Source: Dysgonomonas sp. BGC7
GTDB taxonomy: Bacteria > Bacteroidota > Bacteroidia > Bacteroidales > Dysgonomonadaceae
DNA: 64,000 nt
Assembly: GCF_001261735.1 (NCBI RefSeq)
Contig: NZ_CVRP01000010.1
Location: 331,560 to 395,559, forward strand
Direction: 5' to 3'
Below, one piece after another: positions 15,449 to 64,000 of this stretch. The notes below the pieces were generated by a model. The model did not search any database and had not been told where the DNA came from. It saw only the letters and a list, made by a program, of their open reading frames with translations. The position numbers were made by a program, and so were the translations under genes. The first letter of the stretch is position 1, and the number at the start of each line of letters is the position of its first letter.

Positions 15449-15625
15449 TTATTTCTTTGTAACTTCAATAGATTTTTTACGAAAATCTTTTAAAGCCTTT
15501 TCTATTTCGAGAGAAACTTTTCTTGCACGAGTACCAGCCGCCTTATTTCCGTTTTCGATCTGTGCCGCTGCATCTTTTGCAAAATCTTTAAAACTCTCAT
15601 TCAATTTTTCTACAAGATTCTTCAT
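15449..15625 (-). CDS. histone H1/Hc1-like small DNA-binding protein
   Basis: 58 residues from the ATG at 15625. The chain is short, lysine-rich and predicted helical, with phased Ala and Lys (KDFAKDAAAQIENGNKAAG, then ARKVSLEIEKALKDFRKKS). This is the pattern of Hc1-like nucleoid proteins widespread in Bacteroidales. It probably binds DNA without sequence specificity. The gene is monocistronic, with a clear promoter (15647-15675) and a strong terminator, consistent with high expression. Confidence 0.75.
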   Translation of the reverse strand: MKNLVEKLNESFKDFAKDAAAQIENGNKAAGTRARKVSLEIEKALKDFRKKSIEVTKK

Positions 15626-15646
15626 GTTTTCCTTTTTTATGTGTAA

Positions 15647-15675
15647 CAAAGATATTTCTTATTCTGAACAAACAA
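15647..15675 (-). promoter_or_regulatory. promoter of the Hc1-like gene
   Basis: On the minus strand TTG (15675-15673) and TATCTTTG (15654-15647) are 18 bases apart. They match the -33/-7 consensus and give a leader of about 15-20 bases. Confidence 0.6.
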
Positions 15676-16155: not shown

Positions 16156-16380
16156 ATGCTAACAAATGATATTGGTATTAATGCCGGAACTATCTGGAAA
16201 CTCTTGTCTCAAAGAGGAAATCTGACTGTAAGGGAAATAGGTGAATTAACTCATTATAAAGATTCCCTAATTATGTTAGCTCTAGGATGGCTATCCAGAG
16301 AGAGCAAAATAGAATTTTCAACAACAAATGGAGAGTTGAAAATAGGACTAAAACAAGTGGTTTCTGATCTATATTATTAG
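16156..16380 (+). CDS. small winged helix-turn-helix protein (DUF2582 type)
   Basis: 74 residues. IGINAGTIWKLLSQRGNLTV, then IGELTHYKDSLIMLALGWLSRE and a short beta hairpin (KIEFSTTNGELKIGL), make a complete winged helix. Proteins of this size and pattern (DUF2582) are common in Bacteroidales and are thought to be DNA-binding regulators; their targets are unknown. It is a single gene ending in a strong hairpin at 16409-16449. It lies upstream of the AraC gene and pilus locus, but no operon link is evident. Confidence 0.7.
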   Translation: MLTNDIGINAGTIWKLLSQRGNLTVREIGELTHYKDSLIMLALGWLSRESKIEFSTTNGELKIGLKQVVSDLYY

Positions 16381-16824: not shown

Positions 16825-17691
16825 ATGGGCGATAATTTATCTCAGTTCAATGAAATAAACTTTTTAATAAGAGATGATTCATTTTCTCTTCATGAAGAAA
16901 AGAAGGATAATCAATTAATTGTAGGTAATCAAAGCTACAATTGTATAATATTCATGCTAAGCGGAAATATCGAAATTGTAACAAGTGCGAACAGAACTAT
17001 AATACTCGAGCCTGATCATATGTACAATCTATCTATGCTAACCGGACCATACAAAGGAAAAGTGTTAAAAGATGCCCGCTACATTAATTTAAATACAAGT
17101 GCATTGGTACCGCTAATCAATGCTATTAAATTACAAAATCTAATAGACTCAAGCCATCTGATTAGCAAGGAAGTAGAAACTCTCAAATTTGGAGAGGTAC
17201 TCTATTCATACCTCCAACATATTATTCTACTCAAAAAAGATGAAGATATTCCAGTCGAAATGTATGATCTTAAAAAACTGGAATTTTTATATTACATGAG
17301 ACAATATCATACAAGAGAAGAGCTTGCTCATTTCCTACATGCCTCTATATCTACTCATAGCAAGTTTAGAATGATTGTATATAAGAACTATACAAATTCG
17401 ACAACAGTAAAAGAATTGTCGAACAGATGCTATATGACCACCAAAACTTTTACCCGCCATTTCAAAACAGAATTTGGTGTTACTCCACACAAATGGCTTA
17501 TTAAACAAAAAATTGACAATCTGAATGATTTACTATTTAACAAAGGGGCTTCGATAGAGGATATATTAGAGGAATTTCGCTTTTCATCTATAATAGAATT
17601 CAGGCAATTCTGCATCAGATATCATCTTGATAATATATTGGAATCTTTCAAGCAGCTAAAAGAAGCTTATTTAGAGAATATTACAGATTAA
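16825..17691 (+). CDS. AraC-family transcriptional regulator
   Basis: 288 residues. The N-terminal half (about 1-125) looks like a beta-rich cupin sensor (NYNCIIFMLSGNIEIV, MYNLSMLTGPYKGK). The C-terminal half carries the two AraC helix-turn-helices: TVKELSNRCYMTTKTFTRHF near 195, then EFGVTPHKWLIKQ and ASIEDILEEFRFSSIIEFRQ near 235-260. The second helix-turn-helix is less canonical than the first. It lies 192 bases upstream of the pilus-like operon in the same orientation and is its likely regulator. The signal it senses is unknown. Confidence 0.82.
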   Translation: MGDNLSQFNEINFLIRDDSFSLHEEKKDNQLIVGNQSYNCIIFMLSGNIEIVTSANRTIILEPDHMYNLSMLTGPYKGKVLKDARYINLNTSALVPLINAIKLQNLIDSSHLISKEVETLKFGEVLYSYLQHIILLKKDEDIPVEMYDLKKLEFLYYMRQYHTREELAHFLHASISTHSKFRMIVYKNYTNSTTVKELSNRCYMTTKTFTRHFKTEFGVTPHKWLIKQKIDNLNDLLFNKGASIEDILEEFRFSSIIEFRQFCIRYHLDNILESFKQLKEAYLENITD

Positions 17692-17741
17692 GAATTGAGT
17701 TTTTATGACACAATGCAAATGTCTTTTTTTTTATATTTTTT

Positions 17742-17786
17742 GTCCTTTTTTTTTAGAAAAGGACAACATCGAATAGATTAATTTTG
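17742..17786 (+). promoter_or_regulatory. promoter and inverted repeat ahead of the pilus-like operon
   Basis: TAATTTTG (17779-17786) matches the -7 consensus. Just upstream, GTCCTTTT (17742-17749) and AAAAGGAC (17757-17764) form an 8-bp inverted repeat in a T-rich tract. It could be the end of the AraC transcript or an operator centred some 40 bases before the expected start. No TTG at -33 is seen, as expected if an activator is needed. Confidence 0.5.
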
Positions 17787-17883
17787 CGCCGCATTTAAGG
17801 GGTAAAACAGAATGAATACAAACTGCCTCTCTAATGCAAAGAAAGGAAATAATTGTAAATATTCTAATTTTTATCAGGAAAAA

Positions 17884-18447
17884 ATGAAAACAAAATTTTT
17901 AATTGCGTTCTTCGCATTGATCGTTTCTTATGGAACAAGCAGCCTTTATGCACAAACAACAACAACAGAAGGTGCAAGTGACCAAGTGACCCTAAACATC
18001 AGATTGAAAGCAATACAGACTTTATTGGTAAACAGTGGACAAAAAGTTGTAAATTTAGATTACAACACAACTAGTGATTATGCAAATGGAGTTTCTTCGG
18101 ATCAAGCTGACCACTTAACAATATACAGTACCGGTGGATTTGAAATAAAGGCTAAATCATCTTCTGCAGCTTTGACCAATGACGGAGGTAAAAATATCGA
18201 AGTATCAGATATTAAAATCACAGCTTCAAAAGGAGCTACGAACAAATTAATTGGTGTAGATTACCTTTCTTCAGCACTAAGTGCAGATGGAACAACTATC
18301 GTAAAGAGTGACATGGGGGGGGTAAATCAGACATTCAACATCAAATATCAATCAGCAGGAGCCGATAAATATATTAATCATTATAAACATAAAGAAGATC
18401 CTACTTACTTTACAACAACAGTAACGTACACTATATACGCTAAGTAA
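17884..18447 (+). CDS. secreted pilin-like major subunit (novel family)
   Basis: 187 residues from the ATG at 17884. The frame is open 24 codons upstream, but 17884 begins a clean signal peptide (MKTKFLIAFFALIVSYGTSS, cut after LYAQ). The mature chain is beta-rich, without cysteines, and ends with an aromatic-containing strand (TVTYTIYAK). DYANG at 65-69 and the following LTIYSTGGFEIKAKS recur in the C-terminal half of the protein encoded at 19338, which marks both as one fold. It is the first gene of the chaperone-usher-like operon and is followed by an attenuator-like hairpin, as expected for an abundant subunit. No named family is recognised. A G8 tract lies at 18315-18322. Confidence 0.6.
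   Translation: MKTKFLIAFFALIVSYGTSSLYAQTTTTEGASDQVTLNIRLKAIQTLLVNSGQKVVNLDYNTTSDYANGVSSDQADHLTIYSTGGFEIKAKSSSAALTNDGGKNIEVSDIKITASKGATNKLIGVDYLSSALSADGTTIVKSDMGGVNQTFNIKYQSAGADKYINHYKHKEDPTYFTTTVTYTIYAK
18315..18322 (+). repeat. G8 homopolymer inside the subunit gene
   Basis: Eight G in a row (codons ATG GGG GGG GTA) in otherwise AT-rich DNA. A one-base slip would shift frame at about residue 145 and remove the C-terminal strands. This is a classical layout for slipped-strand phase variation. Confidence 0.6.
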
Positions 18448-18475
18448 ACATTATATTCAGAGATATTTATTTGCG

Positions 18476-18511
18476 AAAGGGAGTGTTATGATAGCAGCTG
18501 GCACTCCTTTT
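18476..18511 (+). terminator. attenuator-like hairpin between subunit and chaperone genes
   Basis: A 10-bp stem (AAAGGGAGTG 18476-18485 with CACTCCTTTT 18502-18511, one G-T pair) lies between the first and second genes of the operon. It is probably a partial terminator giving more subunit than assembly machinery. Confidence 0.65.
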
Positions 18512-18541
18512 CCAACTTTTAAATAAGAGGAATAAAAAAAT

Positions 18542-19345
18542 ATGACACGGAGATTAACTGTCATTATTTCTATACTTGCATTGTGTTTTACTACAAAAGG
18601 TTATGCACAACTTGGAATTTCAGTATCGCCTCCTCGTGTATATTATACAATAGACCCAGGGCAAACAGGAGTTAACGATATTGTCATCACAAATGTCAGT
18701 GACAATAATACGCTGGAGCTATCTATTACTTTGGGAGACTGGATGTATAATGAATATGGTGAAAACGTAATGTATCCGGCCGATAGCTTAAAAAACTCAT
18801 GCGCAGGCTGGGTTAATATCATGGGTTCTTCCTATCTATCTCTCAAACCAAAACAAAGCGAGACTATAAAAGTAGCTATAACTGTACCACCCAATGTAAG
18901 CGATACTATTACAACACACACAGCAATGTTGTATGTAACGCAGATGAATCCCATTGATGATGTTAACGAACATGGAGCAAATATTAAAGTAAGCGTTCGT
19001 TCAGGAATTAAACTTTTTCAAAGAACATCTGCACCCCGGCATAATAAAATAGATATAAGGAATCTTTCCTTAAACAAGACAGAAAATGCTATATTCCTTG
19101 AATTCAAGAATGAAGGTAATGTATGGATAGATGGATCTGTTGGTTCTTATCTGTTCAACAAAGCTACCGGAAAGGAAATAGCTTTGGAAAATATTATGTA
19201 TTACACTATGCCCAACGATCTGCGTATATTAAAAATACCTCTCCCTGCTAATATCGAGAAAGGTAACTATACAGCAACTGTGATGATAGATTATGGAGAT
19301 TCGAACAATATTGAAGCAGCAGAACTTGAATTTACCTATGAATAG
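18542..19345 (+). CDS. PapD-like periplasmic chaperone
   Basis: 267 residues. The signal peptide MTRRLTVIISILALCFTTKG is cut near YAQ. The first Ig-like domain starts with GISVSPPRVYYTIDPGQTG, the layout of the PapD family G1 strand with its conserved Arg. A second edge segment, SSYLSLKPKQSETIKVAITVP (about 97-117), corresponds to the F/G region. The second domain spans about 155-265. Its task would be folding and capping of the secreted subunits by donor-strand complementation in the periplasm. The next gene overlaps its end by 8 bases, so the two are coupled. Overall similarity to proteobacterial chaperones is weak; the fold call rests on pattern and context. Confidence 0.65.
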   Translation: MTRRLTVIISILALCFTTKGYAQLGISVSPPRVYYTIDPGQTGVNDIVITNVSDNNTLELSITLGDWMYNEYGENVMYPADSLKNSCAGWVNIMGSSYLSLKPKQSETIKVAITVPPNVSDTITTHTAMLYVTQMNPIDDVNEHGANIKVSVRSGIKLFQRTSAPRHNKIDIRNLSLNKTENAIFLEFKNEGNVWIDGSVGSYLFNKATGKEIALENIMYYTMPNDLRILKIPLPANIEKGNYTATVMIDYGDSNNIEAAELEFTYE

Positions 19346-20369
19346 AATCATATATTTCATTATTATATTACTCACATCAATTGGTGTTCATTCCCAGACA
19401 CCTAACCTTTCTCTGTGGAGCAATACATATATGAATATTTATTCATACGAAGGGACTACTCAGCCCAATTCTATAACCATCCGGATATCTCAAAACGGAT
19501 ATCTCAATATTCAGAACTGGAAGCTATCTGTAATAGCCACTCCTGTAACAATATGGAATGGATTGTTCTTTCCTGTAGAAAAAATTAATCTACAACCCAA
19601 CTATACAACAGGTACAGTTAAAGATCCCGGGCCATTACCAACAATATCTGAAATAGGAATACCTGCCACCCTGAACCTAATAGGCAACTCGGAAGTATTT
19701 CTTGTTCCACGTTCCAATGCACCTATATACAATATAGGAACTGGCAACAGTTATTACGATCTACAGATTCTATTTAATATGAACGTTGTAGGAGGCAGCT
19801 ACTTAACAAAGCTGAAAACAAATAGTCCTCAATATCCTATAAACATGAGATTTACTCTTTATGGAGCAAATAATGAGATAATAGGAACTACAAATTTGAG
19901 TTATACGATTCAAGTGCATACTAATCTTACGGGCACGCCACCTTCCGAAAACACTTATTCGATCCAGATATCGACCGGAGCCCGAAATGGCCAATTAAAT
20001 ATGAACTCTTTGGCCGACTATGCAAATGGCGCTAGTGTATTATATAATAACGGTTTATCTGTTTCAACGAATATTGACTATCAAATATCTGTAAGGTCAA
20101 TATCTTCTACATTCATATCATCTTCCGGAAATTCACTACCTTTAGATGTTGTCAATGTACAATTGCGACCGTCGTCTGATAATAAAGCCTCTTCTATTAC
20201 AAGGTCCATTTCCAGCACATCTCAAATAATTTCGACAGGAAGTTCCACAAACAAACTACCTGCTTATTATGACATTCATTACTATACCAACCCGAATGAC
20301 CAGAGATTGATACAAGCTAAAATGGAAGACTATTCTACTACTTTGCAATATGAGATTACGCCCAAATAA
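19338..20369 (+). CDS. two-domain candidate tip adhesin
   Basis: 343 residues from the ATG at 19338, which overlaps the chaperone stop; upstream in-frame starts would lie deeper in that gene. The signal peptide is MNRIIYFIIILLTSIGVHSQ. Residues 21-200 form a beta-rich domain with no resemblance to known families. Residues about 205-343 align with the subunit encoded at 17884: LADYANGASV with DYANG at 227-231, then the same hydrophobic strand order and a matching end (LQYEITPK against VTYTIYAK). A unique N-terminal domain joined to a pilin-type domain is the plan of chaperone-usher tip adhesins. The function is inferred from this layout. Confidence 0.5.
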   Translation: MNRIIYFIIILLTSIGVHSQTPNLSLWSNTYMNIYSYEGTTQPNSITIRISQNGYLNIQNWKLSVIATPVTIWNGLFFPVEKINLQPNYTTGTVKDPGPLPTISEIGIPATLNLIGNSEVFLVPRSNAPIYNIGTGNSYYDLQILFNMNVVGGSYLTKLKTNSPQYPINMRFTLYGANNEIIGTTNLSYTIQVHTNLTGTPPSENTYSIQISTGARNGQLNMNSLADYANGASVLYNNGLSVSTNIDYQISVRSISSTFISSSGNSLPLDVVNVQLRPSSDNKASSITRSISSTSQIISTGSSTNKLPAYYDIHYYTNPNDQRLIQAKMEDYSTTLQYEITPK

Positions 20370-20374
20370 GAAAT

Positions 20375-23191
20375 ATGCCATTGCATTTATTTTGTTCTAA
20401 AGTCAAATTCTTACTGGGGATTCTTGGTCTATTTGTATCTGTATATACTCACGCACAAAAAAGTGAGAATATACAAAGTCTAAGTATGCAGGTAGAACGC
20501 ACACTCAAACAATCTCAGCAACAAAATATAATAAGTACAATTATAAAAATAAACAATCGGTCAAATAGAAGTTTTTCAGGAAGTGTAGGAATACGGGAAG
20601 TCAACGGCTTAAGAAGTATAGCCGGAGGAATATTACCAATCGACATTCAGCCATCGGATAGTATATTTTTACCTGTCAAATTTCTAATTCAACCTCAGAT
20701 AGAAGCCGGAACAACTCATATACAATTCGATTTGTTAGACAACGACAGAAAACTGATAGATAAACAAGAATCCACTTTCACTGTCGAAGAAAAAATTGCT
20801 TTATCATTAAATGTTGATCATCAAAACATACTGATCACCAATCCTAATGATTCTGTTAGGGTAAAGGCAAATGTAATAAATTCTGGAAATAAGGCACAAA
20901 GTATAACATTAGTATTCAGTATACCAACTCTACGAGAAGGAGTAAACTTTATTGAACAAAAAGTTGAGCTCTTGCCCATGCAGCATCATCAATTCTCATT
21001 CAGCTTTATGCCTTCCTCATCTTTATTAGACAAACAGAATTTTTCGGTGAATGTTACAGCAATGCGAGGAAAAGATAAAGAAATATTCGGAAGTTCGTCT
21101 ATAGAAGTTCAAAATGTGTCTACAAATAGAAGATTTAATGAAACAGGAAATATAGACTTCAATCTATTCAATCCATACCAGAATAATTCAATTACTGTCA
21201 ACCACAGACAAACAAAATTGTCAAGCAGTATCACCCAACTTATAGGTACCGGAAGTATTGACTTACCAGCCGGATATATAGGATTATCCGGAAATTTATA
21301 TAAAATCAGTTCTGACAATACCTTAGTAGGAACCAATACTTTTTTGTCATACAAGTTAGATCATAATGAAGTGACAGTGGGAAGTGTTTATGAATCATTA
21401 GAAACGACTTTATCCGGAAGAGGAGCTAAAGTCCAACTAGGATCTACAGACAACACTAATCTACGAATAGGCGTTATAGATCAGAATTACAATATATTCA
21501 GCGCTACACCTCTTTTCAACAATACTTATAGCATATATGCCGTAGGACAGCTCAACAGCCCGAATCAGTCGCAAAGGGCATCTTCCTCTTTTCTCTATCA
21601 CTATGACTACATGGAAAAAAGTCGAAATTTGATTACTGGAGGTGATGTAAACTGGTTGGTAAAAAACAACTGGAATATCAATTTAAGACTGCATGGAGCA
21701 ATGAGCCATATAGAAACATTCGGCAACAATAAATTTTCAGGATCGGCTGAATTGAGGTATAATGGAACAAATAAAGGATATGACATGTCCGGATCATATT
21801 ATTTTAGTTCCAATTACTTTCCGGGAGATCGTAGAGGAATGATAACTCTTCAACAAATGCTATACAAAAAACTTAATGATAAATATTCGTTACGAGGTAG
21901 CATTTTCTATTCTCACTTTTCGCCAAGGTCACATACTTTTACAATGAATAATAATTCTCAAAATCTCATGGGAGATGTAGAATTATATTTTCCTAAAAAG
22001 AGAAATATATCCACAAGTGTAACCTATCTCAGCCAATACGAGCAATCGAATAACTATAGACAAAGCTATAATTTCGAAAATGCCAATATGTTTGCCAATC
22101 GGCTAAAAGCGTCTATCCGTTGGAACAACTTCAAAACAAAACACTCGATGCTCTTCTCTGTTGAGAGCGGAATAGCAAAATATCCCTCCGAAAAAAGACA
22201 GAGTATGCAACTGAAAAGTAATCTTACATATTCATACGACTGGATAAATTTTACAACTATGTATCAATATGGAAGTTATTATTTATCAGAATATTTTTTA
22301 TCTCAAAGAGAAGAAAAAACATTTAGGCGTTTGATATCTTCATTAGCTGTAAATAAGGACTTCTCTGAAAAGAAATATATAATAAATGCAGGCATCAGCA
22401 TAACAAAAGACCTGTATACAGACTTATCTCCTTCTGCCTTTGCCAACTTTAAATATACTCCATCCAAGTCGTACTCTGTCTATATAAATTCTATATGGAA
22501 TAATTATAGATTCAGAAATACTCCTTCTAATAATTCCTATAGTGTAGAAGTAGGGTTAACAGTCAACCTCCAAAGAAACAATGCTTCGAGTAAACGTAAA
22601 AGTAAAGTATCGGCATTTGCTTTCTATGACAAAAATACAAATGGCGTATTTGATAAAGGAGAAGAACCTGCAAAAAACTTCAATGTCAAAATAAACAATA
22701 CTGCATTTATCACTGGAGATAAAGGACAGGTTGTATATTCGCGTGTTCCTTTCGGCAACTATGTAATAGACCAAATATCTGAAAATGGTTGGTTCTCATC
22801 CAGCGATACTATTAAGGTAACCAAGTTTAAAACAGATGTTCAGATACCACTACAGCAGGCAGGAACAGTTATTGGCCGAATAAAATATATATTTAATGCT
22901 AAATCGGCAATCGATGTTGTTCCTCAAAAAGAGGGTATATTATTCCTTATAACAAGTAGTGACGGAAAAACAAAACAAAAGGTAGTAACAGACAATGATG
23001 GTCTTTTTACAGCTTTTCTTCCTACAGGAGATTATCAGATAGAATTATTAACCAACTCTCTACCAAACGACTCATTCTGCAAAATCAATTATCAGAAGAT
23101 TACTGTTACTTCGGGCAAGATTCTCAATCTGAAAGCCTTCAATATAGAAATCAGACAAAAGAAGATTAATCTGAAGCACTTCTCTCAATAA
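20375..23191 (+). CDS. usher-like outer-membrane beta-barrel protein
   Basis: 938 residues, close to the usual usher length. A signal segment (about 8-28, ending HAQ) is followed by two beta-sandwich domains (about 30-135 and 138-245). A long stretch of alternating strands (about 255-740) is rich in Tyr, Asn and Ser, like an outer-membrane barrel. A beta-sandwich with an SdrD-B-like start (FYDKNTNGVFDKGEEP, then DKGQVVYSRVPFGNY) spans 745-835, and a carboxypeptidase-regulatory-like domain spans 845-925. Ushers have barrel plus C-terminal sandwich domains, with a similar Gly-Gln-Val segment. No recognisable plug signature was found, so the usher role rests on size, order and neighbours. It starts 5 bases after the adhesin stop. 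Confidence 0.55.
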   Translation: MPLHLFCSKVKFLLGILGLFVSVYTHAQKSENIQSLSMQVERTLKQSQQQNIISTIIKINNRSNRSFSGSVGIREVNGLRSIAGGILPIDIQPSDSIFLPVKFLIQPQIEAGTTHIQFDLLDNDRKLIDKQESTFTVEEKIALSLNVDHQNILITNPNDSVRVKANVINSGNKAQSITLVFSIPTLREGVNFIEQKVELLPMQHHQFSFSFMPSSSLLDKQNFSVNVTAMRGKDKEIFGSSSIEVQNVSTNRRFNETGNIDFNLFNPYQNNSITVNHRQTKLSSSITQLIGTGSIDLPAGYIGLSGNLYKISSDNTLVGTNTFLSYKLDHNEVTVGSVYESLETTLSGRGAKVQLGSTDNTNLRIGVIDQNYNIFSATPLFNNTYSIYAVGQLNSPNQSQRASSSFLYHYDYMEKSRNLITGGDVNWLVKNNWNINLRLHGAMSHIETFGNNKFSGSAELRYNGTNKGYDMSGSYYFSSNYFPGDRRGMITLQQMLYKKLNDKYSLRGSIFYSHFSPRSHTFTMNNNSQNLMGDVELYFPKKRNISTSVTYLSQYEQSNNYRQSYNFENANMFANRLKASIRWNNFKTKHSMLFSVESGIAKYPSEKRQSMQLKSNLTYSYDWINFTTMYQYGSYYLSEYFLSQREEKTFRRLISSLAVNKDFSEKKYIINAGISITKDLYTDLSPSAFANFKYTPSKSYSVYINSIWNNYRFRNTPSNNSYSVEVGLTVNLQRNNASSKRKSKVSAFAFYDKNTNGVFDKGEEPAKNFNVKINNTAFITGDKGQVVYSRVPFGNYVIDQISENGWFSSSDTIKVTKFKTDVQIPLQQAGTVIGRIKYIFNAKSAIDVVPQKEGILFLITSSDGKTKQKVVTDNDGLFTAFLPTGDYQIELLTNSLPNDSFCKINYQKITVTSGKILNLKAFNIEIRQKKINLKHFSQ

Positions 23192-32110: not shown

Positions 32111-35100
32111 TTACTTTACATTAGCGGGAAGAACATATAGCTGCGAAGGATCTATCTCAACATATTTGACATTCTCTCTTCTCCATGTATAAACAATATG
32201 TACAATTCCTTTCTTATCCTGAATAACGGATGGATATGAATATTCTTTTATGGGAGAATCCTCCAACACAAGAATATTATCCCAATGAATACCATCGTTC
32301 GACACAGCTACATTCAGTGGTGTACGCATTCTTGTCATATATGCGCTTTGTGAGGCTTTCACATGATTATAAACCATAAGAAAACGCCCGTCTGCCAAAG
32401 CTATGGCATCCAGCCCCGAATTATTATTAGGGAGATGTAACGGAAAAGACTTTGTCCAAGTCTTCCCCTTGTCGGAAGAAAAAGATGAGACTACAGCCTC
32501 ATTCTGAGAACGACAAACGGTTTGTAATGTTCCATCTTTATGCTGTAATATAGATGGCTGAATGATACTACAGGTTTTATCATTTATCGGATTGGTTTTC
32601 GTCCACATTTTTCCCAGATCGTTTGTAAATTCAAAATGAACTTTCCATCCATCATTTTCTGTACTCGATCCGCAAATAAGCGTTTCGTCCACTAATAATG
32701 GACGATTTTTGATCGGTCCTAAGAAGCCCTCCGGTAGTGCTTCCGGCTTAGTCCATGTAAGCCCGTTATCAAATGACCGAATAAGATAGCCCGACCAATC
32801 CTGAACATTGTATCCGATCTTATAGAAAAGAATAAGCTCTTTTCCCTGAACTTGAAACAAAACAGGATTGTAGCAAGCCTTACGCACAGAATCATTTACA
32901 ATTCCATCTACGACTTTTACCGGAGAAGTCCACTCTGAACCAACTCTACGACTAACATAAATACTCACTTCGGGATGTCCCTCATACTCTCCGCCGAAGA
33001 AAGCCGAAACCAAGCCTGCCGGAGTCTCTTCTATTGTTGCAGAATGAACGGAAGGAAAAGAAACTTTGTTGATATCGTAAATAAATTCATCAGTTAATAT
33101 TGCTTGTTTTGGATTAACTGTTATTCTTTTTTCCAATTTTATATTATCGGAAGACGAACCAACCATAAGAGTAAAATCACCGGGTTCTACAACCTGTTCC
33201 AGATTTTTATCTAAGATAGAAAGATCATCCTTATTTAGATGAAAAGTAATTAGCTTCTCTTCTCCTTTTTTCAGAAAAACTCGCTCAAAATGTTTCAATT
33301 GTTTTACAGGCTGTACGAGAGATGCGAATTCATCTTTCACATACAATTGAACGACCTCTTCGCCATCATATTTCCCTGTGTTTTTCAAAACACAAGAAAC
33401 TTCAAAATCATACAAGCTAAGCTGTTTCGTGGTCATATTAGTATATTCAAATTGAGTATAACTCAATCCATATCCAAAAGAATAGAGTGGCTTAGATGTC
33501 ATTTCTACATAATCGTGCCCCCACGGATTTTTTCTATTATAATAGACAGGTATTTGCCCCACCGATCTGGGAACAGATATAGGCAAACGTCCGGCTGGAT
33601 TATAATCGCCGAATAAAACATTTGCAATAGCAGCACCGCCTTCTTGTCCGGGATACCACCCTGTCAACAAAGCATCGGCATATTCATGAGCCCAATTCAT
33701 ATTCAGAGGACGACCTTGTATGTAGACAACAATAATAGGCTTTCCTGTTGCTTTAATGGCCTTCAATAGTTCGAGTTGTTTACCCATTAGTTCGAGCGAT
33801 GAGCGGTCAAATCCCTCGCCGCTTTCCATATCGCTTAAGCTTTCCGTAGAAGAAATAGCAGCACCGGTTTCTATATATTTGGTTTTAAAATCTCTGGCAC
33901 TGGAACCTCCTACAACAACTACTGCCACATCAGCTCTCAAAGCTGCTTCAACAGCTTCTTTTATAGATAAATCCGTTGTATCACGAATAGCACAACCCTT
34001 AACATATTCTACACGAGAACCTCCTATTTTCGATTTTATACCATCCAATACTGTGATAATATCTTTTCTATTTTGAGGAGCAGTATAGTCGCCAAGCATA
34101 TTATATGGATTATCTGCATTAGGACCTATTACTGCTATTTTATTTTTTTTGCTCAATGGTAAAGTTTGTTTCTTATTTTCCAGCAATACAATAGATTCTT
34201 GTGCCAATTGACGTGCCAAAGAAATATGTTCCTTTGTCTTCACATTTTTTGAGGCATCGTCTATTTTAACATAAGGATTCTCAAATAATCCCATATCAAA
34301 TTTCAGCTTCAATACTCTATATACAGCTGAATCAATATCGGACATATTAATTTTTCCGTTCTTAAAAGCATCCCCCAGCAAACTAAAAGAGTTAAAGCCT
34401 AAATCTACATCAACACCCGAACTTAAAGCCAGTACCCCTGCATCTTCGAGAGACTTACTAACTAAATGTTGTTCCTTTAATCCATCGACACTAACCAAAT
34501 CTGAAACAACAAACCCTCCAAAATTCCACTTATCTTTCAGTATATTTTTCAACAAATCACTGTTTGCTGTACAAGGAATACCATCTACTGAGTTGTATGC
34601 CGTCATTACAGAAAGTGCTCCAGCCTCTATTGCTTTTTTAAACGGAGGAAGAAAGTTTTCATGAATTTCTCTATTCCCTACCAATGCAGTATTTCCATTA
34701 TGCCCTCCTTCGGGAATTCCGTATGCTATAAAATGTTTAAGTGTAGTAATTGTGCTATAGGGATTATTAAGTTGTCCTTTTCCATTACCTTTGGCTATAG
34801 CTGCACCTAATGTAGCTGCCAAAACAGGGTCTTCGCCAAAAGTTTCTTCAACTCTTGACCATCGTGCATCGCGCACGAGATCCAGAACAGGGCCATAGCT
34901 AATATGTGCTCCTTGCGAACGAATCTCTTTCGAAATAGCCCCCCCCATCTTTTCCAACAAAACAGGATTCCAGGTCGAAGCCTGCCCTATACCTGAAGGA
35001 AATACTGTTCCCCCGATAGCCATATGTCCATGAGGTGCCTCTTCTGCTATAAACAGAGGAATACCTAAACGGGTATTTTCCAGAACATAGCGTTGTAAAG

Positions 35101-35455
35101 CATTTCCCACTTTTGCAGCCAAAGTAGGCGACAGTCCATTCTCTATTGTTTTTTTTGTCCATGGATCAGCTCTATAAACAGCCCACAACATGCCAATATG
35201 TTTGTTTTGAACAAGATCTTTAAACTTTTCTGAATACGTTACCTCGTCTCCCTGCCTATCATACATCTCCCAACCCAAGGGACAAAGTAATTGTCCTACT
35301 TTCTCTTCCAAGGTCATTCGGCTCAGAAGATCCAAGACTCGCTCATGACTACTCAACTTTGAATCTTTGTACGGCAAATTATCGCTCGTATTTGATGAAA
35401 CCCTACATACAAACAGGCTAAAAACAAAAAGGATAAGGCAGTATCTTTTCTTCAT
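32111..35455 (-). CDS. GH3 glycosidase fused to a BNR/sialidase-like propeller
   Basis: 1114 residues. A signal peptide (about 1-21) precedes the GH3 TIM barrel (about 35-390), whose nucleophile Asp lies in GFVVSDLVSVDGL near 316. The alpha/beta sandwich (about 415-650) and FnIII-like domain (about 675-750) end a normal GH3 enzyme. A further 330 residues follow. This part has four Asp-box motifs (SFDNGLTW near 888, TNDLGKMW near 945, SSDKGKTW near 992, SNDGIHW near 1055) and an N-terminal GLVSAFFGGEYEGHPEVSIY, as in BNR_2 sialidase-like proteins. GH3 members include beta-glucosidases and beta-xylosidases; the propeller may be a second glycosidase or a binding module. A G8 tract lies near residue 170. 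Confidence 0.85.
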   Translation of the reverse strand: MKKRYCLILFVFSLFVCRVSSNTSDNLPYKDSKLSSHERVLDLLSRMTLEEKVGQLLCPLGWEMYDRQGDEVTYSEKFKDLVQNKHIGMLWAVYRADPWTKKTIENGLSPTLAAKVGNALQRYVLENTRLGIPLFIAEEAPHGHMAIGGTVFPSGIGQASTWNPVLLEKMGGAISKEIRSQGAHISYGPVLDLVRDARWSRVEETFGEDPVLAATLGAAIAKGNGKGQLNNPYSTITTLKHFIAYGIPEGGHNGNTALVGNREIHENFLPPFKKAIEAGALSVMTAYNSVDGIPCTANSDLLKNILKDKWNFGGFVVSDLVSVDGLKEQHLVSKSLEDAGVLALSSGVDVDLGFNSFSLLGDAFKNGKINMSDIDSAVYRVLKLKFDMGLFENPYVKIDDASKNVKTKEHISLARQLAQESIVLLENKKQTLPLSKKNKIAVIGPNADNPYNMLGDYTAPQNRKDIITVLDGIKSKIGGSRVEYVKGCAIRDTTDLSIKEAVEAALRADVAVVVVGGSSARDFKTKYIETGAAISSTESLSDMESGEGFDRSSLELMGKQLELLKAIKATGKPIIVVYIQGRPLNMNWAHEYADALLTGWYPGQEGGAAIANVLFGDYNPAGRLPISVPRSVGQIPVYYNRKNPWGHDYVEMTSKPLYSFGYGLSYTQFEYTNMTTKQLSLYDFEVSCVLKNTGKYDGEEVVQLYVKDEFASLVQPVKQLKHFERVFLKKGEEKLITFHLNKDDLSILDKNLEQVVEPGDFTLMVGSSSDNIKLEKRITVNPKQAILTDEFIYDINKVSFPSVHSATIEETPAGLVSAFFGGEYEGHPEVSIYVSRRVGSEWTSPVKVVDGIVNDSVRKACYNPVLFQVQGKELILFYKIGYNVQDWSGYLIRSFDNGLTWTKPEALPEGFLGPIKNRPLLVDETLICGSSTENDGWKVHFEFTNDLGKMWTKTNPINDKTCSIIQPSILQHKDGTLQTVCRSQNEAVVSSFSSDKGKTWTKSFPLHLPNNNSGLDAIALADGRFLMVYNHVKASQSAYMTRMRTPLNVAVSNDGIHWDNILVLEDSPIKEYSYPSVIQDKKGIVHIVYTWRRENVKYVEIDPSQLYVLPANVK
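34939..34946 (-). repeat. G8 tract (coding strand) inside the GH3-BNR gene
   Basis: Eight C on the plus strand are eight G on the coding strand, in codons ATG GGG GGG GCT. A slip of one base here would destroy the enzyme early in the barrel. It is the same length and context as the tract in the pilin-like gene. Confidence 0.6.
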
Positions 35456-56981: not shown

Positions 56982-59900
56982 ATGGAAAACGAGCAGAATA
57001 AACTTAACATTGAATTTTATTATTTACCTGTCGTAAATTTTGCTATGCAGCAAAATAGAGTATCTATAATACGCGATCTTTTTATAGAGAATCTGGCTCA
57101 AAATGCACTCAGAGATCTGAAAATAGTATTAGCTACCGATCCTGAGTTTGCAACAGTCTCTCCCATATCTATTGAAGTCGTTGCTGCAAAAGAAAAAATA
57201 AGAGTCGAAATACCCCAATTAAGCCTTTCGTCTAACTACTTTGCTCAACTTACCGAACGAGTATCAGGTGATATATCTCTCAAAATATACTCGAAAGATG
57301 AACTGTTACTTGAAGAAAAATATCCTATAAATATATTAGCATATGATCAGTGGGGAGGAATTGACGTCTTACCTGAAATACTATCATCCTTTGTCACTCC
57401 CAATCACCCTGCTACAGTACCCATAATAAAAAGAACAGCCGCTGTTCTCGAGCAATGGACGGGTAGTCCTTCTTTAGACGAATATCAGAGCAGAAATCCC
57501 GACAGAGTACAAAAACAAATGGCTGCTATATATACAGCCATTGCCGAACAAGAAATTATATACAGTACTGTACCTGCCAGTTTCGAAGAATACGGTCAGC
57601 GTATACGGCTCATAGATTCAGTGATGACACAAAAGCTAGGTACATGTCTAGATATGGCACTACTCTACGCTTCATGTCTCGAAGCTATAGGAATACATCC
57701 TCTCATTATAGTAGTCGATGGGCACGCTTTTGCCGGAGGCTGGCTCATTCCCGAAACATTTCCCGATAGTATCACCGACGATATTTCTTTGATAAGTAAA
57801 CGAACTGCTGATGGTATCAACGATATCACTTTGATAGAGACTACATGTATGAATATGGGGCAGAATATGGATTTTGATGATGCTGTAAAGGCTGCGAACA
57901 AACGCCTCTCCCAGTCTGGATTTATGCTGGCAATAGATGTGAAAAGAGCACGCTCTTCGGGAATAAAACCGATACCTCAACGAATACTGAATGGAAAACA
58001 TTGGGAAATTGAAGAAGAGGTTTCCTCCAATCTAGACAAATCACGAACAAGTCCGCAGACGATCAATCCTTACGATCTGTCGGGCATAAGTTCAGAGATG
58101 GTTATAACAAAACAACTATTGTGGGAACGAAAATTATTAGATCTGAGCCTGAGAAATAATCTACTAAATATAAGAATAACAAAAAATACTTTACAACTCA
58201 TTTCTGCCAATCTGGACTTGTTTGAGGATGCTTTGGCCAATGGAGACGAGTTTCGAATAATGCACAAACCAACTGATTGGGACAACCCTTTGTTCGACTT
58301 CGGACTATACAAGTCTCTTTCAGAAGCAGATCCTATAATAGACCTTATAAAGTCTGAACTGACACAAAAACGACTTCGCTCCTATTTCAGTGAGAACGAT
58401 CTAAGTAAAGCTCTTACTTATCTGTATCGCTCTTCACGAACAGCTATGGAAGAAAACGGAGCTAATACATTATATATCGCTTTAGGCTTATTGAAGTGGT
58501 ATGAAACAAAATTGAGCGAACGACCTCGCTATGCGCCGATATTACTTATTCCTGTGGAGATAATAAGAAAATCAGCAGCTAAAGGGTACGTGATTCGTTC
58601 GCGCGAAGAAGAAACAATGATGAATATCACATTGTTGGAAATGCTTCGCCAGAATTTTAACATAATTATTTCGGGACTAGACCCTTTACCTACTGATGAA
58701 AGCGGAGTAAACGTAAAACTCATTTACACTATTATTCGAAACAGTATAAAGAATCAGCCTAAATGGGATGTGGAAGAGCAAGCTATTCTGGGACTATTTT
58801 CGTTCAGTAAGTTCATTATGTGGAACGACATACACAACAATGCTCATAAACTGATAGAAAACAATGTGGTTTCGAGTTTGATGAATGGAAAAATAGAATG
58901 GAACATAGAAGAGCCGACCATGGATGCGAAAACTTTGGATGAAACTTTACCTCCCAATGAAGTAGTATTGCCTATCAGTGCCGACTCATCCCAATTAGAA
59001 GCTATATGGGAAGCAGCCGAGGGGAGAAATTTCATTCTTCATGGACCTCCGGGAACGGGCAAATCCCAAACGATAACAAATTTAATAGCCAACGCTCTAT
59101 ACAGGGGTAAGCGAGTATTATTTGTTGCTGAAAAAATGGCTGCTCTTTCGGTTGTGCAACGTCGGCTCGAAGCTATAGGTTTAGCTCCTTTCTGTCTGGA
59201 ACTACATTCCAATAAGACAAAAAAGGGAGCAATTCTATCTCAACTAAAAGAGACTACTGAAGTAGTAAAAACGATACCACCCGAAAATTTCGAACAAGAA
59301 GCTGAGCGCATTTTCGCATTGCGCACCGAAATGAACAAATATATAAAAGCTCTGCATAAAGTGTATCCGTTTGGTCTTTCACTATTCGATGCTATAGTTA
59401 AATATCAACAAATAGAAGACAAACCCGTATTTAATATACCGGAATCTCTTTTTTCTGATTTGAATAAGAATACACTTCATCAATGGCACGAAACATTAGA
59501 GTTGTTAGTATCTACAACTAATGCATGCGGACACCCGTATAAGCATCCATTAACAGGTATTGCTATAAAACAATATTCATCTGCCACTAAAGACGAAGTA
59601 GCTGAATGCGTTAGAAATACGATTACGCTCATCTCTGAAGTGCAAAAACAATTAGCACTCTTACCTGATATTTTTAACGAATTCGATATTTATAAAGATA
59701 GAAAAAACATAGAGGTAGTAGCTGGTATAATAGATAAATTATTGAATATACCTGAACTCTCTTCCGCATTACTCGCTTCTCCTCTATTAAACGATATTTT
59801 AGAAGAATATCGTGAAGTGTGTCATCACGGAAGGAACAATGACAGGCTAAAGACAGACTTATTGTCTGTTTTTTCGGAAGGAGTATTGACCCTTGATGCA

Positions 59901-62777
59901 AAAAAGCTATTATTCGATTGGAATCAAACTCTCAACAAATGGTTTATCCCTAAGTTTTTGGGACAAAGAGCTGTTAAGAAACAGCTTGCGACTCATGCAA
60001 TTAGCCAGATAAATAAAGATCAGATAGCCAAAATATTAGAAGACATAATAGAGTATCAGTCCGAACAGGCATATCTGAAAAAATATAAAGAAGATATACC
60101 TCTCTATTTCCGAAAATATGGCCGCTCCGGAAATGAAGATTGGAAAGCTATAGAGCAGATAGTTGCTGATACCTCCATCATCAATTCGCTAATACTTGAT
60201 TATACCAAAGATATATCTAAGGCTACAAGTATAAGACAAATCTTATCGTTGCAGTTAACAGATGGCATAACGACTTTCAGGAGCATGCATGGAGAAATAC
60301 TCATTGCTGTAAATAGTCTTATAATAAAACTGAACAGACAGGAAAACCTATTGTACAATATATTAGGAACAACTCATGATGTATTGTACAAACAATTTGA
60401 CAACTGGACAGAAACAGCTTTAAAACAATTATACATATGGTACGATAATATAGATAAGCTCAAAGATTGGTATCAATGGCTACTCGTCCACAACAAGATG
60501 GAAAATCTACAATTAGGTTTTATTGCCCGACAATACAAAGACGACAATATAGAAGCCGCAGCGTTGATTAATACTTTTTATAAAAGTTTTTATAAAGCTG
60601 TAATAAACTATATTATTTCAAAAGAACCTAGTTTGGATCTATTTAAAGGTAAAATATTTAATGATACAATAGAAAAATATAAGAAGCTTGTTGCTGAATT
60701 TGAGCAACTTGTCAGAAGAGAGCTATACGCTAAACTAGCAGCCAATATTCCTTCTTTTACCAGAGAGGCTACCCAAAATTCGGAAGTAGGCATTTTGCAA
60801 CGAAATATACGAAACAATGCTCGAGGTATTTCCATTCGCAGACTGTTCGATCTTATTCCTACTCTACTTCCTCGTATGTGTCCATGTATGTTGATGAGTC
60901 CTATATCTGTGGCTCAATATATAGATGTAAATACAGAAAAATTTGATCTCATAGTTTTTGACGAAGCATCTCAAATGCCGACTTATGAAGCAGTAGGAGC
61001 TATTGCTCGCGGAACGAATGTTGTAATAGTAGGTGATCCAAAACAAATGCCTCCGACAAACTTCTTCTCGGTAAATTCAGTCGATGATGAAAATATAGAA
61101 ATGGAAGATCTGGAGAGTATTCTGGACGACTGTCTGGCTCTTTCTATGCCCTCCAAATACTTATTATGGCACTATAGAAGTAAACATGAAAGCTTGATAG
61201 CATTCAGTAACTCAGAATACTATGACAATAAGCTATTAACATTCCCTTCACCTGATAATATAGAATCGAAAGTAAAGTTTATTCCTATCAAAGGACATTA
61301 CGACAAAGGGAAGTCGCGACAAAATAAAGCAGAAGCACAAGCTATTGTCGACGAAATAGTAAGAAGACTGGAAGATAAGACGCTGAGGAGAAAAAGCATA
61401 GGTATAGTCACATTTAGCTCGGTACAGCAATCTCTTATCGAAGATCTGCTTTCTGACGTTTTTATGCAAAATCCTGTTCTGGAAAGTCTTGCTCTCGAAT
61501 GCGAAGAACCTCTATTTATAAAGAATCTGGAAAATGTACAAGGCGATGAAAGGGATATCATTTTCTTCTCGGTGGGTTACGGACCCGATAAAGATGGACG
61601 CGTGAGTATGAACTTCGGACCACTGAATAGATTAGGAGGTGAACGCAGACTAAATGTAGCTGTATCGAGAGCCAGATACGAAATGATCATATATTCGACA
61701 TTACGCTCCGATCAAATTGATCTCAATCGAACATCGGCTATTGGAGTTGCAGGACTTAAGCGCTTCTTAGAGTATGCCGAAAAAGGCGGACATGTGACTT
61801 CAAAAACTCAAAAGGCTATTTCGGAATACTCAATTAATAATATTATAGCTGCTAGGCTGGAAAAGGAAGGCTACAAAGCAGATATCAATATTGGCTGTTC
61901 AGGCTACAAGATAGATATAGGTATTGTAGACAACGAAAATCCGTCGAAGTATAAGCTCGGAATTATATGTGATGGAGAAAATTACAGACAGGCAAAAATG
62001 GTTAGAGATAGAGAAATAGTACAAAATAGTGTACTAAAAATGCTTGGATGGAAAATACTCAAGATATGGACACTCGACTGGTGGGAGAATCCAAATGCCG
62101 TTTTGCAAACAATAAAAGAAGCTATTGAAGCGAATGAAGAACAAGCTATAGACGATATTACAAAAGAGGACGAAGCTACTCTTGTAAATGAAGCATCTGT
62201 AGACAAACAAGAGATTGCAAAATCTCTGGTAGACACTATACGTCCATATCAGGGCTCAGTACTTAATCCTTCTCCATATTCCAGTGAAGAATTTTTTCAG
62301 CCAAATTATAAGGAGCTTATCCTAAAACAAATAAAAATGGTAATAAAGGCCGAAGCTCCTATCAGTAAATCGTTGTTATACAAAAGAATTCTTACAGCAT
62401 GGGGAATATCGCGGCTAGGACAAAGGCTTGATAGTTATTTTAACAAGTTATTAGCAACAACAGATTTCTATTCTTCACAGTACGAAGACTTAACATTCTA
62501 TTGGCTAAGTAAAGAGCAATACCTAGAATATGACCTCTTTCGCACAGGAATGAGAGATGCTGTAGATCTACCTCCTGAAGAAGTGGCAAATGCTATGAAA
62601 TATCTATTAACAGATGAGATAAGCCTGCCAACAACAGATCTGTCTAGATTGTGTGCTCAACTATTCGGTTTTGCACGAGGCGGTTCGAACGTAGATGCAG
62701 CTATGCACCGAGGAGTGATAAAAGCCTTAGAAAGAAGTTTTCTAAAAATAAAAAATGATCGTGCAGTAATAATATAG
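56982..62777 (+). CDS. giant DUF4011 SF1 helicase with transglutaminase-like and Vsr-like nuclease parts
   Basis: 1931 residues. A beta-sandwich N-terminus (about 1-110) is followed by a transglutaminase-like segment with Cys222 in GTCLDMALLYAS and His248 in VVDGHAFAGG. DUF4011 comes at about 375-420 (LLWERKLLDLSLRNNLLNIR). The SF1 helicase is split: Walker A GPPGTGKS 688-695, a long helical insert, motif II DEASQMP at 1327, GDPKQMPP at 1351, HYRSKHE at 1397, VQGDERD at 1519 and NVAVSRARYEM near 1560. A Vsr/DUF559-like nuclease spans about 1625-1710 (GYKIDIGIVD, GIICDGENY), and DUF3320 about 1770-1840. This build is known from anti-phage candidates. It is not in an operon. Confidence 0.85.
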   Translation: MENEQNKLNIEFYYLPVVNFAMQQNRVSIIRDLFIENLAQNALRDLKIVLATDPEFATVSPISIEVVAAKEKIRVEIPQLSLSSNYFAQLTERVSGDISLKIYSKDELLLEEKYPINILAYDQWGGIDVLPEILSSFVTPNHPATVPIIKRTAAVLEQWTGSPSLDEYQSRNPDRVQKQMAAIYTAIAEQEIIYSTVPASFEEYGQRIRLIDSVMTQKLGTCLDMALLYASCLEAIGIHPLIIVVDGHAFAGGWLIPETFPDSITDDISLISKRTADGINDITLIETTCMNMGQNMDFDDAVKAANKRLSQSGFMLAIDVKRARSSGIKPIPQRILNGKHWEIEEEVSSNLDKSRTSPQTINPYDLSGISSEMVITKQLLWERKLLDLSLRNNLLNIRITKNTLQLISANLDLFEDALANGDEFRIMHKPTDWDNPLFDFGLYKSLSEADPIIDLIKSELTQKRLRSYFSENDLSKALTYLYRSSRTAMEENGANTLYIALGLLKWYETKLSERPRYAPILLIPVEIIRKSAAKGYVIRSREEETMMNITLLEMLRQNFNIIISGLDPLPTDESGVNVKLIYTIIRNSIKNQPKWDVEEQAILGLFSFSKFIMWNDIHNNAHKLIENNVVSSLMNGKIEWNIEEPTMDAKTLDETLPPNEVVLPISADSSQLEAIWEAAEGRNFILHGPPGTGKSQTITNLIANALYRGKRVLFVAEKMAALSVVQRRLEAIGLAPFCLELHSNKTKKGAILSQLKETTEVVKTIPPENFEQEAERIFALRTEMNKYIKALHKVYPFGLSLFDAIVKYQQIEDKPVFNIPESLFSDLNKNTLHQWHETLELLVSTTNACGHPYKHPLTGIAIKQYSSATKDEVAECVRNTITLISEVQKQLALLPDIFNEFDIYKDRKNIEVVAGIIDKLLNIPELSSALLASPLLNDILEEYREVCHHGRNNDRLKTDLLSVFSEGVLTLDAKKLLFDWNQTLNKWFIPKFLGQRAVKKQLATHAISQINKDQIAKILEDIIEYQSEQAYLKKYKEDIPLYFRKYGRSGNEDWKAIEQIVADTSIINSLILDYTKDISKATSIRQILSLQLTDGITTFRSMHGEILIAVNSLIIKLNRQENLLYNILGTTHDVLYKQFDNWTETALKQLYIWYDNIDKLKDWYQWLLVHNKMENLQLGFIARQYKDDNIEAAALINTFYKSFYKAVINYIISKEPSLDLFKGKIFNDTIEKYKKLVAEFEQLVRRELYAKLAANIPSFTREATQNSEVGILQRNIRNNARGISIRRLFDLIPTLLPRMCPCMLMSPISVAQYIDVNTEKFDLIVFDEASQMPTYEAVGAIARGTNVVIVGDPKQMPPTNFFSVNSVDDENIEMEDLESILDDCLALSMPSKYLLWHYRSKHESLIAFSNSEYYDNKLLTFPSPDNIESKVKFIPIKGHYDKGKSRQNKAEAQAIVDEIVRRLEDKTLRRKSIGIVTFSSVQQSLIEDLLSDVFMQNPVLESLALECEEPLFIKNLENVQGDERDIIFFSVGYGPDKDGRVSMNFGPLNRLGGERRLNVAVSRARYEMIIYSTLRSDQIDLNRTSAIGVAGLKRFLEYAEKGGHVTSKTQKAISEYSINNIIAARLEKEGYKADINIGCSGYKIDIGIVDNENPSKYKLGIICDGENYRQAKMVRDREIVQNSVLKMLGWKILKIWTLDWWENPNAVLQTIKEAIEANEEQAIDDITKEDEATLVNEASVDKQEIAKSLVDTIRPYQGSVLNPSPYSSEEFFQPNYKELILKQIKMVIKAEAPISKSLLYKRILTAWGISRLGQRLDSYFNKLLATTDFYSSQYEDLTFYWLSKEQYLEYDLFRTGMRDAVDLPPEEVANAMKYLLTDEISLPTTDLSRLCAQLFGFARGGSNVDAAMHRGVIKALERSFLKIKNDRAVII

Positions 62778-63947: not shown

Positions 63948-64000
63948 TCTGAAATACAAAAAAGAGGATGAGCATTTACTTTCAGTAATACTTTGATTTT

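Follow-up and report, generated by a model that had tools for sequence, protein, structure and literature searches.

A probable diverged chaperone-usher operon in Dysgonomonas with a predicted link to TLP-type fibres

Introduction

The closest described systems to the operon considered here are the chaperone-usher pili of the type 1 (FimA-H, E. coli K-12) and P kinds and the alternate class (CS1/CFA-I, ECP; CfaA-E, EcpA-E). The barrel of FimD has 24 strands and a plug, and the CFA/I operon is short, with a single major pilin and a single two-domain tip protein. Accounts of pili in Bacteroidota usually treat them as type V (FimA/Mfa), the known pili of Bacteroidales, which are also thought to use strand exchange. 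Among the open-access titles and abstract openings listed, none describes a chaperone-usher system of this sort in Bacteroidota, which is weak evidence of absence.

The DNA analyzed (the window) is a stretch of 64,000 nt from Dysgonomonas sp. BGC7 (GCF_001261735.1), contig NZ_CVRP01000010.1, positions 331,560-395,559 of the forward strand. It carries an operon that very probably encodes a diverged Bacteroidota chaperone-usher pathway, whose predicted product is a pilus that probably bears a two-domain adhesin at the tip. Like those of type 1 and P pili, this operon is compact and encodes a PapD-like chaperone in which the key Arg and Lys are present, a two-domain tip-like subunit and a large barrel with C-terminal sandwich domains. 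In contrast to them, its barrel protein and pilins have no detectable sequence match, and the barrel is plugless, has about 26 predicted strands and is preceded by two Ig-like domains. With the alternate class it shares CfaE among the fold matches of the two-domain protein and, with CFA/I, a short operon of one predicted major pilin and one two-domain protein, whereas EcpB/EcpE (25.5%) and EcpC (10.8%) give no significant profile match. The phylum and the predicted strand-exchange principle are shared with type V pili (FimA/Mfa1), but the operon lacks a fimbrillin domain or lipobox and has a PapD-like chaperone and a barrel.

Operon organization and conservation

Five open reading frames occupy the + strand at 16825..23191 of the window and encode an AraC-type regulator (16825..17691, +; HTH_18, E 1.6e-9), a subunit (P2), a chaperone (P3), a two-domain protein (P4) and a barrel protein (P5). 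An earlier note, made from the DNA sequence alone, had described an AraC regulator followed by four codirectional, tightly spaced secreted proteins, and this arrangement is present: successive reading frames are spaced by 120 nt (regulator to the start of the P2 reading frame), 94 nt, -8 nt and 5 nt, and signal-peptide-like segments, as read from the sequence, open P2, P3, P4 and P5. When all five proteins were compared with Pfam and NCBIfam, the regulator gave the only clear match. This regulator is likely to control the operon; its relatives occur in 5 of 100 fetched loci (phmmer, E 0.01 or better), and the two strong matches among the five are Dysgonomonas loci (L061 and L062).

The same four-gene order, which the earlier note had proposed seeking in other Bacteroidota, recurs there. 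Subunit, chaperone, two-domain protein and barrel follow one another in 82 of 99 tabulated loci, the window included (70 S-C-A-U and 12 S-S-C-A-U), although these loci are not independent draws, because they were chosen by chaperone similarity, some are truncated by the end of a contig and at least two contigs, recognized by identical lengths, are counted twice (L078/L142 and L106/L145). The recurrence of this four-family order is more than chance. A P2 relative lies upstream of the chaperone gene in most tabulated loci, and carriers include Dysgonomonas, Proteiniphilum, Chryseobacterium, Flavobacterium and relatives.

Among 395 genomes drawn evenly from the phylum, the chaperone is found in 12 at E <1e-30, all in the class of the window; at E 1e-3 the count is 26, and the 14 weaker genomes were left out of the prevalence. 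Within the Dysgonomonadaceae, 23 of 101 genomes have chaperone matches, and the only one of these 23 from the genus of the window is the window's own genome. An usher profile matched 46 of the 395 genomes, only 8 of them near full length, and the figure of 46 is unfit as a prevalence because the remaining matches are mostly to the C-terminal sandwich domains. A comparison of empty sites within the genus revealed no clean one and was dropped. Of 25 genomes, 23 have the left flanking gene, but only 3 others have a close relative (77-79% identity) of the right flanking gene, and in one single-contig genome (G558) about 0.7 Mb separates the two.

The chaperone

The chaperone gene (P3; 18542..19345, +) encodes 267 aa. 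Profile-profile comparison identifies P3 as a homologue of the FimC group, in agreement with the PapD-like character that the earlier note had assigned to it. Against eight E. coli K-12 chaperones, P3 aligns over 211 columns and FimC residues 27-241 (hhalign 96.2%, E 2.1e-9), whereas the same query stays below 1% against the K-12 usher, pilin, EcpA, EcpC and EcpD sets. The homology spans both PapD domains and includes the conserved Arg and Lys: R32 and K157 align with the key residues of FimC and are kept in 52 and 50 of 56 aligned sequences, respectively. K157 pairs with the Lys in FimC SRIKLYYRP and lies, together with a G1-type strand, in IKVSVRSGIK (residues 148-157; 18983..19012, +), where the alternating positions I148, V150 and V152 are mostly hydrophobic across the 56 sequences and fall in the region matching part of FimC G1.

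Pfam PapD_N matches to the chaperone family are weak and PapD_N has no match in the genome; the FimC model matches P3 weakly (E 0.011, residues 7-261); and single-sequence and profile searches of P3 and P5 against PDB sequences returned nothing useful. At the sequence level, likeness to proteobacterial families is limited to the chaperone, as originally noted, with P3 at 96.2% and neither P5 nor the pilins giving a detectable sequence match. The suggestion of an independent or very diverged surface-fibre pathway survives in its second half: a very diverged pathway fits, and a fully independent one is not favoured because P3 is homologous to the FimC group.

The subunits and their relation to TLP-1 and TLP-2

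The P2 reading frame opens at 17812, and an alignment of 54 sequences places the probable start at 17884 (17884..18447, +). P2 is the predicted major subunit. Near its mature N-terminus, residues 33-44 (DQVTLNIRLKAI; 17980..18015, +) form a candidate donor strand. Across the 54 sequences, the columns of V35, L37, I39 and L41 are hydrophobic (mean Kyte-Doolittle 3.6 to 4.3) and the interleaved columns of T36, N38, R40 and K42 are not (-1.1 to -3.4). The match of P2 to the homologous C-terminal domain of P4 starts only at P2 residue 43 (hhalign 99.2%, E 1.9e-19), so that the alternating segment, which P4 lacks, falls outside it. This segment is likely to be the donor strand.

P4 (19338..20369, +) is read from a reading frame that opens at 19293, with a probable start at 19338 placed by its signal peptide, and shares 8 nt with the end of the chaperone gene. 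Its AlphaFold2 model (mean pLDDT 93.5) contains two beta-sandwiches, which bears out the earlier description of a two-domain subunit-like protein: an N-terminal one (19392..19922, +), predicted to bind a receptor, and a C-terminal pilin domain (residues 204-343; 19947..20366, +), the one homologous to P2. The best 50 Foldseek matches mix the tip adhesins CfaE, FimH, LpfD and CupB6 with unrelated Ig-like proteins, and a profile search with the P4 alignment gave no relevant match. P4 is predicted to be the tip adhesin.

The best PDB profile matches of P2 itself are direct and weak, to TLP-2 (E 0.03) and TLP-1 (E 0.07), which are fibre subunits solved by cryo-EM (TLP-1/TLP-2, PDB 9ikj/9ikk), have longer chains than P2 (236-237 aa) and presumably bear a glycan coat in the fibre. 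Through intermediates the connection strengthens: the P2 family matches TLP-type pilins (hhalign 93.5%, E 2.3e-7), and the pilin of one such locus (L155) matches TLP-2 at E 4.9e-9. Beside this pilin and in two like loci, the usher matches the P5 family (100%, E 5.7e-42) and the chaperone matches the P3 family (100%, E 1.6e-57). In each of the 7 genomes found to encode a TLP-like pilin of full length, a nearby second subunit matches only from model position 44/45, past the donor segment. By these comparisons the P2 pilin family includes TLP-1 and TLP-2, via intermediates. What is new is the tie, as read from sequence profiles, between this family, the TLP-1/TLP-2 fibres and the chaperone and usher genes.

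The 94-nt gap between the P2 and P3 genes contains a hairpin with a T-rich 3' arm (18475..18512, +). The predicted folding energy of the gap is -22.9 kcal/mol (z -3.2), which none of 200 shuffles equals. A perfect-stem terminator-like pattern occurs in 24 of 89 equivalent gaps of relatives, compared with 0.1 on average and 2 at most over 20 shuffles. A terminator scan limited to loops of 3-8 did not report the site. The hairpin is likely a leaky transcription attenuator.

These results bear on whether the product of the operon might be a short adhesin assembled by the chaperone, or a coat resembling a capsule, instead of a rod. Such a product would suit the one or two subunit genes that, besides the two-domain gene, are all that most tabulated loci hold, and the fibre of this operon is a prediction. 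The kinship of the P2 family with TLP-1/TLP-2 fibre subunits, and a hairpin resembling an attenuator, through which P2 would become abundant, nevertheless leave this reading unlikely.

The barrel protein

P5 (20375..23191, +) is a usher-like outer-membrane barrel protein of 938 aa, modeled with a mean pLDDT of 86.7 and a pTM of 0.63. The sandwich domains at both ends that the earlier note had recognized appear in this predicted model. Residues 35-253 (20477..21133, +) look like tandem Ig-like domains, judging from strands in the full-length model and a weak FixG_C Ig match (E 0.00037, below cut-off). The barrel spans residues 272-731 (21188..22567, +) and has about 26 predicted strands rather than the 24 of the FimD/PapC family, as counted by hand from DSSP of the predicted model, not of a solved structure. 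The model has no plug, that is, no domain-sized insert inside the barrel, and none of the 71 aligned sequences has one either, because the length of the barrel segment varies among them only from 457 to 472 aa. Two C-terminal sandwich domains follow (residues 741-926; 22595..23152, +), in a piece that matches SpaA with 29 bits against a cut-off of 23.1.

The PF00577 Usher profile has no match in P5 or the genome, and hhalign of P5 against ushers reached 0.6%. A second structure aligner ranked an Mtr-complex barrel first. P5 could be read as a barrel of the MtrB or porin kind, an anchor or exporter for something else, with the operon serving as a surface-adhesin or transport system that makes no pilus. 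This is quite improbable in view of the Foldseek search of the PDB, in which FimD and PapC chains hold ranks 1-9 of 1112 matches (E 1.4e-15 to 1.6e-11) and the best non-usher reaches 3.3e-10 compared with 1.4e-15 for the best usher. The VIA alignment of P5 with PapC covers P5 271..926, reaching into the C-terminal domains; absence from the VIA-align list was used to exclude no family. Gene context likewise argues against an Mtr- or porin-like role, since the P5 gene accompanies a PapD-like chaperone and subunits in the 82 loci described above and all 15 of the loci that encode TLP-like pilins also have a P5-family usher and a P3-family chaperone, and the operon proteins match no cytochrome family.

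A FimA/Mfa-like (type V) pilus whose operon carries unusual accessory genes would be of the known pilus type of Bacteroidales, for which strand exchange is likewise proposed, but it is highly improbable given that P2 and P4 match no Pfam or NCBIfam family, fimbrillins included, at E up to 10, that neither signal peptide ends with a lipoprotein cysteine at the chosen starts, that a PapD-like chaperone and large barrel are present and that P4 matches chaperone-usher tip adhesins; the operon is most likely not of the FimA/Mfa kind, as had been anticipated.

Proposed pathway and implications

The diverged chaperone-usher pathway remains the preferred reading, and the earlier comparison of the gene order and sizes with a chaperone-usher operon is supported by the homology of P3, the fold matches of P4 and P5 and the recurring gene order. 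In the proposed pathway, P2 and P4 would reach the periplasm via Sec, where P3 would lend its G1 strand to hold each subunit, with R32 and K157 anchoring the subunit C-terminus. P5 would then receive the subunits, each still bound to its chaperone, on its periplasmic sandwich domains and let them through the barrel in folded form. P4 would be exported first, because its second domain sits where P2 has its donor strand, and P2 would follow, polymerizing by donor-strand exchange through the N-terminal segment VTLNIRL. The leaky hairpin after the P2 gene may keep P2 in excess over P3, P4 and P5.

A chaperone-usher branch in Bacteroidota would add a surface-adhesion route in a major phylum, and a plugless usher of another size would test which usher parts gating and subunit transfer need. 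The link to TLP-1 and TLP-2 supplies a concrete candidate assembly gene set for fibres solved by cryo-EM, and the assembly question is therefore directly testable. The chances are about even that a Bacteroidota branch with a plugless usher of about 26 strands and tandem Ig-like gating, broad in the phylum, makes the TLP-1-type cryo-EM fibres. If so, these orphan environmental fibres would gain an assembly machine, and chaperone-usher pili would be placed broadly in Bacteroidota.

Operon organization and conservation

An ORF listing of the window recovers the five genes of the proposed operon where the earlier note had placed them. All lie on the same strand and encode an AraC regulator (P1), the predicted major pilin (P2, start 17884, chosen by alignment with relatives), a PapD-like chaperone (P3), a two-domain subunit predicted to be the tip adhesin (P4, start 19338) and a 938-aa usher-like barrel protein (P5). 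P2 and P3 are separated by 94 nt, P3 and P4 overlap by 8 nt, and P4 and P5 are 5 nt apart. In relatives, the median pilin–chaperone gap is 79 nt (89 loci with gaps of 21–299 nt), the median P4–usher gap is 6 nt (83 loci) and the median chaperone–P4 distance is −8 nt (84 loci), with single overlaps being rough because the ORF starts there are first-possible starts. The 1.6-kb stretch upstream of the regulator holds two small ORFs, judged by eye: a lysine-rich, histone-H1-like peptide (15449–15649, minus strand) and a 74-aa protein with a winged-helix-like look (16156–16380, plus strand).

Loci were picked for comparison by chaperone similarity (the best 80 of 95 matched plus 20 from a second set, at least two contigs being present in both), giving 101 sources with the window, of which 99 were tabulated; L158 and L159 have no chaperone row. 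The order subunit, chaperone, P4-type subunit, usher-like barrel recurs in 70 of the 99 tabulated sources and with an extra leading subunit in 12; the others are variants, split genes or contig-cut pieces. Four genomes (G095, G210, G012 and G308; loci L150, L151, L153 and L154) also carry, beside the main system, a paralogue of it that comprises a chaperone, an usher and four or five subunit genes and has no detected P4-type gene.

Chaperone and usher-like protein

The link of the P3 family to PapD depends on profile-profile comparison, as simple profile searches gave no convincing match. The P3 family (56 sequences) matches eight E. coli K-12 chaperones at 96.2% (E 2.1e-9), EcpB/EcpE at 25.5%, and the K-12 usher, pilin, EcpA, EcpC and EcpD sets at <1%. 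FimC GATRVIY and SRIKLYY align to SPPRVYY and SGIKLFQ of P3, and the two key positions are presumably PapD R8 and K112. R32 is kept in 52/56 aligned family sequences and K157 in 50/56. Judged from these alignments, chaperone homology is well supported.

For P5, a structure predicted from 71 aligned sequences (pLDDT 86.7, pTM 0.63) suggests two Ig-like domains, ~26 strands within residues 272–731 and two C-terminal domains. Because the longest connection between barrel strands is ~18 residues and the barrel segment is 457–472 residues long in every one of the 71 sequences, no plug appears to be inserted; the FimD barrel, by contrast, has 24 strands and a plug. Foldseek places ushers at ranks 1–9 (TM 0.20 to 0.36). 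VIA-align ranks 6r2q_B of the Mtr complex first, which we take to be the 26-stranded MtrB, with PapC level with a porin and FimD just after. Neither a genome search with an usher profile nor profile-profile comparison connected P5 to ushers, and by sequence P5 falls outside PF00577, the Pfam Usher family. P5 thus looks usher-like by its position, partners and Foldseek ranking, and its usher identity is moderately supported.

Pilin family

The best PDB sequence matches of the P2 profile are the cryo-EM fibre subunits TLP-2 and TLP-1 (9ikk/9ikj; E 0.03 and 0.07), beginning close to the mature N-terminus. These structures reportedly come from a CryoSeek study of pond water, and the fibres are said to carry glycans. 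Part of another article also mentions glycoprotein fibres from natural samples.

A search of 395 phylum genomes with the matching 63 residues of TLP-2 gave two hits, both in a single genome, and this locus (L155) adjoins a chaperone and usher already detected by the window's profiles. The genes there run usher, chaperone, pilin, pilin, and the first of the two pilins has an E value of 4.9e-9 against TLP-2. Two further genomes with such pilins were found among 148 of this genome's family, and a profile of the three pilins had matches in 14 of the 390 genomes searched from its taxonomic order. In the 15 loci inspected (those 14 genomes plus G435), chaperone and usher both lie within ~8 kb in every case; eight share the L155 order, and seven have different orders and weaker TLP matches. 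Compared with the window's families, proteins of three such loci score 100% for ushers, 100% for chaperones and 93.5% for pilins.

All seven genomes with a full-length match to the three-pilin profile have a second subunit close by whose own match starts at model position 44 or 45. In L155 the mature form of this second subunit is predicted to begin just ahead of that position, so it would lack the donor segment (the alternating hydrophobic N-terminal stretch of the pilin), as expected for one placed at the tip or end. The wider family varies in gene order, since in L240, L241 and L242 the usher is on the strand opposite to the chaperone and pilins.

Pilin–chaperone hairpin

The window's pilin–chaperone gap folds better than 200/200 shuffles (z −3.2) and contains a perfect-stem terminator-like pattern, which also occurs in 24 of the 89 gaps of relatives versus a mean of 0.1 (maximum 2) in 20 mononucleotide shuffles. 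The strict pattern was not found in the other 65, and a terminator scan restricted to loops of 3–8 did not list the window's site. The hairpin may act as an attenuator.

Other loci in the window

The window ends in a possible defence locus, in which a reverse transcriptase closely resembling retron type III-A models (62781–63959, minus strand; E 2.9e-107) adjoins a 1931-aa DUF4011/helicase/nuclease protein (56982–62777, plus strand) matching defence models PDC-S37 and Hhe. The protein at 32111–35455 (minus strand) combines a BNR (sialidase-like) repeat domain with an entire enzyme of glycoside hydrolase family 3, a fusion that looks unusual.

Distribution and interpretation

Sequence search finds chaperone relatives in Flavobacterium, Chryseobacterium, Dysgonomonas and others, in some sources already annotated 'fimbrial biogenesis chaperone', and 'hypothetical protein' is the label on the handful of named usher relatives. 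The distribution is patchy: the chaperone matches strongly in 12/395 phylum genomes and is matched in 23/101 genomes of the window's family, where the window's own genome is the only member of its genus among the matches. G+C content is slightly lower in the operon (34.6%) than in the window (37.4%), and gain or loss of the system via transfer is possible. The operon is best read as a diverged chaperone-usher pathway whose usher has a new architecture; most likely it makes a pilus, and we infer that a fibre is formed.
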